DNA of 64,000 nucleotides from Cliona cf. orientalis (taxonomy: Eukaryota > Porifera > Demospongiae > Clionaida > Clionaidae), in contig CAWVNT010000209.1 in NCBI GenBank assembly GCA_963930775.1, positions 124,001 to 188,000 of the forward strand. Reading direction: 5' to 3'. Below, one piece after another: positions 54,634-60,954 of the stretch; position 1 is the stretch's first letter, and every line of letters begins with the position of its first letter. Made by a program: the position numbers and the translations under genes. The notes under the pieces were generated by a model. The model did no database searches, was not told the origin of the DNA, and saw only the letters and a program-made list of their open reading frames with translations.

Positions 54634-57600
54634 TTAGAATCTTAACTTCTGGAAAAACCATCTGTTTTTGCCGGTTCTGTACCTGCAAAGAGAAAGAAAA
54701 TTATGAAACCATTAATATGCAAACACATAATTACCACCCGCATCCCAATGCAAACACATAATTACCACCCGCATCCCAAGGATGAGGGAAGGTAATGTTT
54801 CAGCTAGTCTTTCAACGGGGGAGGGGGGGGTGTACCCCGGCCTGCCTCTGTACTCCAGCCTCTGGTCCCAGGCCTTTTCCAAGGGGTACCCCTAGATAGC
54901 ACCTGGTGGGGGGGGGGGGGGGGGGGGGTCCGATCACTGTACACCTCCATAAGTCGATTCTGTTCGTTCAGATAATAGGGAATCTTACTGTCAGCAGCAC
55001 ACGCAAGGTGTTCGCAGTGAGCTGGGTGTATCATCATTACGAACAGAATCGTTTTGTCATCTATGGTTCACAACTTGACAAAATTCCCTGTAGTTTCTTT
55101 TGTTCTTTTCTTCAAGCAAAAAGTACCCCCCCCCCCCCTCCAACGAGAGAATGGGTACGACTCTCCCCCTCTCGAACAAGTTACGTTGCGGACAGTATGC
55201 CTCTTGCGGTTTCCCGCAGACTTTCTTGTTCAGATCAAATTACTCACTCCAGGTGAGTGGACGAGACGTCCAAAAAGGGTCACGGCTAACAGTAAACCAC
55301 AAGACACTTATGTATAAAAATCCTTTCTTCAAATAATTTGTTGTGTCCAATTTAGATCTATTTATGAAAATAACACGCCAGTACATTTTGGTTCGCTTCA
55401 TAAAACGTGTCCTTGTAAATCTGGAAGCGGAGTTTAAGGGACAGAGTGCTTCAGGGTTGCCACATTTGAGTTGGTTCAAAATTCCCTGACATTTCCCTGA
55501 AAATTCCCTGACATATCACCATTTTTCCCTGACAATTTATCTTATTTTTCCAAGTTAAAAACAAGGATTGTTCACTAAAAACAATTAAATATTCCTATAT
55601 CTATATTAAATGTTTTTGCCAGAAAGCAATAATATAAACCAGTACTCATAGAAGTAATAAAGCATTTTGAAAAAGGTATGATGGGAATATATGCTGAGTG
55701 AAGCAAGGCTAACAAAAATTTTATGACTTGAAAATGTATGCAAGGAAAAAAATGCCAACCATGTTCAGAAAAAAATTAATTGTCATGACGAAATTCCCTG
55801 ACATTTCCCTGACATTGGTCAAATGGCTAAAATTCCCTGACAATTCCCTGACTTGGAGAAAATTTTGTTTTCCCCTGACTTTTCCCTGACACGTGGCAAC
55901 CCTGTGCTTCTGGTGATTCATATGCTCAACAGTGTCTACCCATGGCCTAAACTTCAATGTTTACATTTTCATCTTAAAAAAAGTCTGCCAAGTTAATTAA
56001 AGAAATCATAATTCCCTGTACATCCATGTCAAAGGCATTAATCAAATCTTTCGCCTTTACAAGAAACTTCTCAATTGTTTAGTCCTTGTTTACTATTTAG
56101 CCCCAAAGTACAAGTACATTTGTTGTTTATATGAATTTAGCACATCTGCTGAAAACTGTTAGGGGGGGGAAGAGATACCTCCTGGTCAGGATACCCCGCA
56201 ACCCCATAAACAGGCAAACAAACTGAAAACATTACCTTCCCCCGTACTTCGTACGCGCGCGGTAAAGAACTCTTTACCGGCCCGTATGTAGTATGATCTC
56301 TCTGTCCCATGATGCACTGGGAACCCATCTCATCATTTCGTTCACTCAGCTTAAGGACAAGTTGTCAGTAACATCGCACCTGAAGTGCTCGCTGGAAAGT
56401 TTTCATCATTGTGAACGTAACAACTTCGGAGAAAATAAACAAATTGACCCAGAATGGCTGACCTAGGCCTCCACACAGGTTGATGAAACAGTAAATCGTA
56501 TGAATGTAATATACCTATCCTTTGTTTGTCTGAAATGTTGTAACACCCCCTTACCTCGCCCGATGTCAATCTTTTAAAATAAGGGTTCTGTTTACACGTT
56601 CCGTCACAGGTTTATCATTGTGTCAATGGTGATAGGCTGAATAGGTTCTGCACCCATTCTACCCATCAAACGGTCCATAACCATAAGCAAAATGACAAAC
56701 CTTGACGGTGACGCCATCGGAATGTGTAAACAGACCTTAGCCAACGGGTTTGCTGAAAACTGAAATATTACTTGGTCCCACTTACAACTGAAAAGATACT
56801 AAAGAACAAGAAAATCCTACTGCATGACCAGCAAGAGGCGTACCGCCCCCGTGGCGTAGCCAATTAACTCTTAACGGCCCGTATGTAGTATGAGCTATCC
56901 CCAGGCCATGATTTACTGGTAACCATTTCATGATGGCTGACACAGGTTGATCAAACAGTAAATCGTATGAATGTCATACACCTACCCTTGGTATTGATCA
57001 TCTTGAACAGTTTCTTTAAACGTGAAGGATTGATTATGGGGTCACCAGTTTACATATCTTTAGTGACTGACTGCACAAGACACAGTGATATTATGTTGTT
57101 GAATTATTAGATTTAAATTATTAGATTGCATTTTGAAATAACTTTCCCTTTTCAAGCACCAACTGCGACTATCCGAAGACTTTGTCACCTTTAAGTCAAA
57201 ATTGTTCTTGCAAGATCGGATATTAATGACAACGTTAGCGTCGTGCTGTTATTCCTTATTAATTGTACCGCAAACACTGTACCATCTTTACAATTCGATT
57301 CTGTTCGATCAGATAATAGGGAACTACTATCAGCAGCACACACAAAGTGTTGGCATGAGTTTGATGTGTCATCATTTCGAACAGAATTGTTTCGTCATCG
57401 ACGGTTCACAAATTGTTACCGTCCGCGTACGTAGTACGACGGGAAGGTTATGTTTTCAAAGTTGTCTGTTGGGGGAGGGCACCCAAGCCTCAGGTCCTTT
57501 CTGGGAAGTACCCCCTCGTCCTGTCTTGGAGTACCCCCTGAACAGGACAAGGGGTGCCCCCCCCCCCCGACACGAGAACGAATGATGATACGCCCATTGC

Positions 57601-60954: not shown

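Follow-up and report, generated by a model that had tools for sequence, protein, structure and literature searches.

Four candidate box C/D snoRNA copies in the introns of an RPL27 gene, with guides predicted for two adjoining stretches of 28S rRNA

Several copies of the U29 snoRNA occur within one host gene in Drosophila. Copies of snoRNAs in neighbouring introns of one gene have been described for chicken (PMC2653536) and for ribosomal protein genes of sponges (PMC3412847), and 27 ribosomal protein genes of Drosophila are snoRNA hosts (PMC2246290); papers are cited here and below for the portions that were available. The statement in a preliminary description of this DNA that ribosomal protein genes are known snoRNA hosts is borne out by two of these sources (PMC2246290, PMC3412847). 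The available part of the Drosophila survey does not mention RpL27 as a host (PMC2246290), and RPL27 as a snoRNA host is likewise not stated in the available parts of PMC2653536 and PMC3511168, nor is it named in that of PMC3412847. The guide target that is most relevant here is A4523 of human 28S rRNA (A4493 in the older numbering), the site of U29/snR71 (PMC8817022; also in the table of PMC11542601), the yeast counterpart of which is A2946, with snR71 as the guide (PMC8817022, PMC3511168). The Neurospora RNA CD27 is listed for both the A4523- and the C4525-equivalent sites (PMC2780460).

The window, by which we mean the whole stretch of 64,000 nucleotides that was analysed, carries on its minus strand an RPL27 gene, modelled with four coding exons and GT-AG introns and encoding an eL27 protein of 136 aa. 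The predicted protein matches solved eL27 chains (best PDB E 2.5e-73) and the Pfam domain Ribosomal_L27e (3.6e-39). The dinucleotide AG is found immediately 5' of the ATG and a further intron in the 5'-UTR is therefore likely. The gene model comprises:

60874..60954, minus strand: RPL27 coding exon 1, with the ATG
60873-60445, minus strand: RPL27 intron 1 of the coding part (GT-AG)
60275..60444, minus strand: RPL27 coding exon 2
60274-57757, minus strand: RPL27 intron 2 of the coding part (GT-AG)
57646..57756, minus strand: RPL27 coding exon 3
57645-54683, minus strand: RPL27 intron 3 of the coding part (GT-AG)
54634..54682, minus strand: RPL27 coding exon 4 (last), up to the stop codon

Four related sequences of about 97 nt had been noticed at 54955, 57296, 58480 and 60548, on the host strand, at least one in every RPL27 intron and none elsewhere in the window. 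A BLAST search of the window with the first of these (A1) recovered them as four long matches, all on the minus strand, which is that of RPL27 (identity to A1: A1 100%, A3 97%, A4 94% and A2 85% over 92 nt), and the next-best matches had an E of 0.19, so that number, position and orientation were all confirmed. The length holds for A1, A3 and A4 (97 nt each) but not for A2 (92 nt). The first intron contains A4 (103 nt from the 3' splice site), the second A3 and the third both A1 and A2, and thus a copy is indeed present in all three introns of the coding sequence. Upstream of the ATG, BLAST with A1 found no copy as far as 64000. In the 6 kb beyond the window, A1 found just an 18-nt (E 0.021) and a 13-nt match, which is chance level. 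A DNA search of the assembly holding the window (very common words skipped) returned the same four places, all in RPL27, and the transposon-like copies outside introns against which the preliminary description had cautioned were not found. The copies, to which we refer as family A, are:

54955..55051, minus strand: A1, candidate C/D snoRNA of 97 nt, the sole copy with every element intact
57296..57387, minus strand: A2, candidate C/D snoRNA of 92 nt; D' guide lost, 11-nt box D guide retained
58480..58576, minus strand: A3, candidate C/D snoRNA of 97 nt; D' guide retained, G facing U4512, one stem mismatch
60548..60644, minus strand: A4, candidate C/D snoRNA of 97 nt; both guides retained, box C AUGACGA, one stem mismatch

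Read on the host strand, A1 consists of a 13-bp stem, an A-A-U bulge and the GAUGA of box C, while the CUGA of box D abuts the other arm of the stem. This arrangement of stem, bulge, GAUGA and CUGA is the kink-turn of C/D RNAs. The elements of A1 are located as follows:

55039..55051, minus strand: terminal stem, 5' arm, 13 nt
55031..55037, minus strand: box C, AUGAUGA (strict C/D scan)
55017..55027, minus strand: D' guide ACCCAGCUCAC, antisense to 28S GUGAGCUGGGU
55012..55015, minus strand: proposed degenerate box D', GCGA (interpretation)
54991..54996, minus strand: proposed box C', UGCUGA, which includes the central CUGA (interpretation)
54973..54982, minus strand: D guide UUCCCUAUUA, antisense to 28S UAAUAGGGAA
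54968..54971, minus strand: box D, CUGA (strict C/D scan)
54955..54967, minus strand: terminal stem, 3' arm, 13 nt

A strict scan of the window for C/D geometry, on either strand (box C with at most one mismatch, stem of at least 5 bp, kink-turn arrangement), yielded five candidates. In four of these box C is perfect and the stems measure 7, 11, 7 and 13 bp, and all four lie on the minus strand within RPL27 introns: they are A1, A2 and the two members of a second family (family B, see below). In the fifth (48887-48993) box C deviates at one position and the stem counts 5 bp. In 40 shuffled windows the average per window was 0.125 perfect-box candidates, none with a stem of more than 6 bp, and 0.6 candidates with one mismatch. 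The combination of box C RUGAUGA, box D CUGA and stem in kink-turn geometry is strictly present in A1 and A2, and A3 and A4 fail the scan because each has one stem mismatch. The 13-bp terminal stem and the box C that had been attributed to every copy thus need qualification: the stem is perfect over 13 bp in A1, counts 11 bp in A2 and carries a single mismatch in A3 and in A4, and box C is perfect in A1 and A2 but reads AUGACGA in A4.

The folds of A1, A2, A3 and A4 have z-scores of -6.31, -4.03, -5.65 and -3.16, respectively. In the alignment of the copies 97.0% of the stem cells are paired, a share that drops to 16.7-50.0% once the partner is shifted by 1-3 columns. A single compensatory change is seen (the innermost pair, U-A to A-U in A2), which is weak evidence by itself because 111 out of 500 shuffles reach one as well. 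The cores share 82/97 (A2), 94/97 (A3) and 91/97 (A4) columns with A1, and the flanks are less well kept in A2 (23/32 and 20/34) and in A4 (21/30 and 17/36); the upstream flank of A3 is identical to that of A1 (30/30 bases). Immediately 5' of the terminal stem (55052-55071 in A1), a block resembling GTGAACCATAGATGACAAAA is fairly conserved beside all four copies.

No Rfam family reached its gathering score anywhere in the window. A permissive Rfam search of 8.1 kb gave matches on the family A copies that were all to C/D snoRNAs and all below threshold. TtnuCD4 (RF02281) scored 29.3 bits on A4, 26.6 on A1 and 22.4 on A3 (threshold 60; best E 0.053 in the 8.1-kb search), with A2 not among the matches listed, and reached an E of 0.00085 for 131 bases that were chosen after the permissive search. 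SNORD29 (RF00070) scored 23.8 bits on A1 and 17.2 on A4 (gathering threshold 48), SNORD111 28.9 bits on A2 (threshold 46) and SNORD103 21 bits on A1 (threshold 45).

Complementarity to rRNA was analysed with the last 469 nt of the LSU and the first 786 nt of the SSU of another organism. The LSU end came from a eukaryotic contig (L076; Rfam E 1.7e-98) that is a contaminant in a bacterial bin; it contains UAAUAGGGAACGUGAGCUGGGU, which was located by a search for this very pattern and is, the first base excepted, given in upper case (conserved) in the Rfam consensus for eukaryotic LSU. The sequence ACCCAGCUCAC in A1, A3 and A4 is antisense to GUGAGCUGGGU at 11/11 positions and is lost in A2, and UUCCCUAUUA in A1 and A4 is antisense to UAAUAGGGAA at 10/10 positions, with 11 nt in A2 and one G-U in A3. 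The two 28S stretches are separated by one base, and in A1 the first guide lies 3 bases past box C and the second 1 base ahead of box D. Within 3000 shuffles of A1 a 10-nt match to the 28S fragment occurred in 68 and an 11-nt match in 17, and none (0/3000) combined two separate matches of 10 nt within a 30-nt stretch of target. A third 10-nt match, present in A1 and A4 and overlying box D, is to another part of the LSU fragment, and we take it to be chance.

The box D' of the preliminary description was presumably the central CUGA. This CUGA is present, but it is more likely to form part of a box C' (UGCUGA), because 22 bases separate it from the end of the 28S guide in A1 and because the Rfam alignments of SNORD29 and TtnuCD4 have a D'-like GA at GCGA, directly after the guide. 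We interpret this GCGA as box D'; both proposed boxes, GCGA and UGCUGA, are degenerate and the D' is non-canonical. Positions were expressed in human 28S numbering, anchored on Um4498/Gm4499 and Am4523 (table in PMC11542601). Counting five bases, box D points to U4512 and GCGA as D' to A4523, whereas CUGC as D' would point to C4525, which corresponds to yeast Cm2948 (snR69). A guide that selects A4523 at five bases from GCGA is found in A1, A3 and A4 but not in A2.

The identification of the copies as box C/D snoRNAs, already made in the preliminary description, is the best reading of family A because of the kink-turn geometry, the 28S complementarity at both guides and the weak Rfam matches to C/D families only, and we regard it as well supported. 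Very probably, these are snoRNAs from RPL27 introns that guide modification of A4523 and U4512; taken separately, guide function at the U29/snR71 site is likely and methylation of U4512 by the guide before box D is possible. From sequence, geometry and the complementarity to the 28S of another organism we infer expression, RNP assembly, methylation and the target in the organism itself, as follows. Four snoRNAs would be made from the spliced-out introns of RPL27, and terminal stem and kink-turn would recruit 15.5K/Snu13, Nop56/58 and fibrillarin and would protect the RNA. Pairing of ACCCAGCUCAC, beside the degenerate D', with 28S would aim fibrillarin at A4523, and pairing of UUCCCUAUUA, beside box D, with the adjoining stretch would aim it at U4512. 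The copies would have arisen by duplication inside RPL27, with A1 intact and the others partly degenerate or specialised, as could be the case for A2 that retains the box D guide alone.

The flaws in A2-A4 would look like relaxed constraint among redundant copies, or like partly dead copies. It may even be that A1, perhaps with A4, is the sole working copy and that the rest are decaying duplicates, alike through recent duplication or gene conversion and not through selection, a reading to which we give somewhat less than an even chance. It is suggested by the missing D' guide of A2, the G opposite U4512 and the stem mismatch of A3, the altered box C and stem mismatch of A4, and by the likeness of A1 and A3, which extends at 96% over 176 nt with the flanks included. 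On the other hand, the cores of A4 and A2 are better kept than their flanks, and A2 combines a longer box D guide with an 11-bp stem and a compensated pair.

It could also be that the stretch before box D brings about no methylation of U4512, and instead strengthens the binding of the A4523 guide or chaperones the folding of the rRNA. Accessory pairing near the guides is known for C/D snoRNAs and counts in favour of such a role, which we consider conceivable and not probable. U4512 is absent from the available part of the table of PMC11542601 (which covers plants, and human/yeast sites only where these are common to plants), while Arabidopsis Am2935, which is in that table, equals A4511 by our count, one base off U4512. 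A literature search by U4512 site names, in so far as texts were available, had a sole match that concerned another site. Um2925 was considered as prior evidence for U4512 and was rejected: it is a different site, since it shares its row with human Um4498 (PMC11542601, available part). Against a purely accessory role, the duplex stops a single base short of a perfect box D, where active guides normally lie, A2 keeps precisely the box D guide, and TtnuCD4 carries that guide too. That family A is a mobile or simple intronic repeat devoid of snoRNA function is highly improbable, as the several copies with common flanks and the other repeats in the same introns have to be set against just four places in the assembly, none outside RPL27, and against boxes and guides that are in register with 28S.

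Family B, which was missing from the preliminary description, consists of the two other perfect-box candidates of the scan:

56339-56417, minus strand: B1, C/D-like, perfect box C, 7-bp stem (strict C/D scan)
59951-60025, minus strand: B2, C/D-like, perfect box C, 7-bp stem (strict C/D scan)

They are embedded in a repeat (56335-56580 and 59947-60184; 89% over 246 nt) and have an identical box C, stem and box D, with a diverged stretch before box D. In the assembly, the two repeats and a 53-nt piece of the flank at 56940-56992 were the places found for this family, with no others. The folds of B1 and B2 (with slightly trimmed ends) do not stand out (z 0.95 and 0.08), and the Rfam matches, 9 on B1 and 11 on B2, are weak and all to C/D families. 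Family B is probably a pair of C/D snoRNAs. It has matches of 9 and 8 nt to the 18S fragment of another organism, and may be able to pair with another 18S stretch. Assignment to a known Rfam family was rejected (snoR53Y, 22.5/43 bits on B1; SNORD121A, 20.1/44 on B2), and we mention as a curiosity that a plant cluster snoR53Y-U29a-U29b has been reported (PMC5122169, available part). The conserved upstream flank of family B was also considered as the seat of an H/ACA RNA, a reading for which the fold z-scores of 0.06 and -1.17 gave no support. The second and third RPL27 introns each have one B and one A copy in the same order, with A2 as an extra in the third, and otherwise share short repeats (BLAST). 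Clusters of short CCCTGAC-like and CCCCGAC-like repeats occur at 55479-55890 and 58076-58376, in both large introns.

The window is part of a 338-kb contig (C117) in an assembly that also has chromosome-sized contigs (C1 is 37.5 Mb). A second RPL27, with 69% identity in residues 1-87 and 66% in residues 83-123, is located on contig C11; it looks intact by reading and its coding part has one intron fewer. A dispersed repeat at about 62254-62550 has 14 matches, on C117 and on eleven contigs numbered C51 or higher (three of which are 17-40 kb), and none on chromosome-sized contigs among the best candidates scored. The TpA ratio is 0.65-0.81 in ten pieces of C117 as against 0.85-1.07 in seven pieces of six chromosome-sized contigs. 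On account of the second RPL27, the distribution of the repeat and the TpA ratio the assembly looks chimeric, and C117 is probably from another organism than the chromosomes, so that the figure of four copies is not to be read as the number in the source genome. By eye, the dispersed repeat has tRNA-like A and B boxes and is SINE-like; ARAGORN found no tRNA in the window. A tandem array at 50114-51143 with a period of about 201 bases, seen in repeated reading frames, was found on C117 only. The search for 5.8S in the assembly was negative (39 of 4795 candidates scored), as was that for the 28S target with up to two mismatches.

The RF00070 model gave six matches in the assembly, none over the cut-off (61 scored of 92,406 candidates); two chromosomal places at 30.2 and 27.4 bits were above the 23.8 of A1, and the family A copies of the window itself were not listed. 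These matches were rejected as a U29 elsewhere in the assembly, since none of the six has AGCTCAC or the D guide. The pattern of D guide plus box D occurs at five places in the assembly (A1, A2, A4 and two on chromosome-sized contigs), and no strict C/D candidate spans the latter two. A looser pattern of box C plus guide occurs at 125 places, as against 42 for the reversed control. On viral contigs the pattern of D guide plus box D is found at 34 places and that of both guides, in the TtnuCD4-like form, at zero.

RPL27 can be added as a likely host of snoRNAs, and one ribosomal protein gene appears to have two C/D-like families copied among its introns. The predicted mark at U4512, beside the A-loop, is a specific prediction, and a double guide common to a ciliate bears on the age of individual guide arrangements. 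Provided that the double-guide reading is true, the same guide pair in a ciliate would point to an ancient arrangement, the U4512 arm of which later disappeared. The full proposal, in which double-guide U29 RNAs methylate both A4523 and U4512 beside the A-loop of the peptidyl transferase centre and lineages with well-mapped rRNA have dropped the U4512 arm, is speculative and in our estimation rather unlikely.

Among described RNAs, SNORD29/U29 and yeast snR71 (RF00070 and RF00479, clan CL00051) have a like A4523-selecting guide and box C/D geometry. The D' of the SNORD29 model is AUGA whereas that of family A is GCGA, and family A is longer than SNORD29/snR71, has a more extended stem and carries an additional guide ahead of box D. 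In the Tetrahymena RNA TtnuCD4 (RF02281) the two guides follow each other as they do here, one of them leading up to a GA and the other to CUGA, but its middle part is different; the common guide pair could be inherited from a shared ancestor or could have converged under the constraint of the target. Spread of snoRNA copies across the introns of one gene is likewise seen in chicken (PMC2653536, available part) and in sponge ribosomal protein genes (PMC3412847, available part), from which the present case differs in that a single gene contains four candidates of family A together with two of family B. That ribosomal protein genes can carry snoRNA copies in neighbouring introns is thus already known, and the novelty is the predicted U4512 guide.
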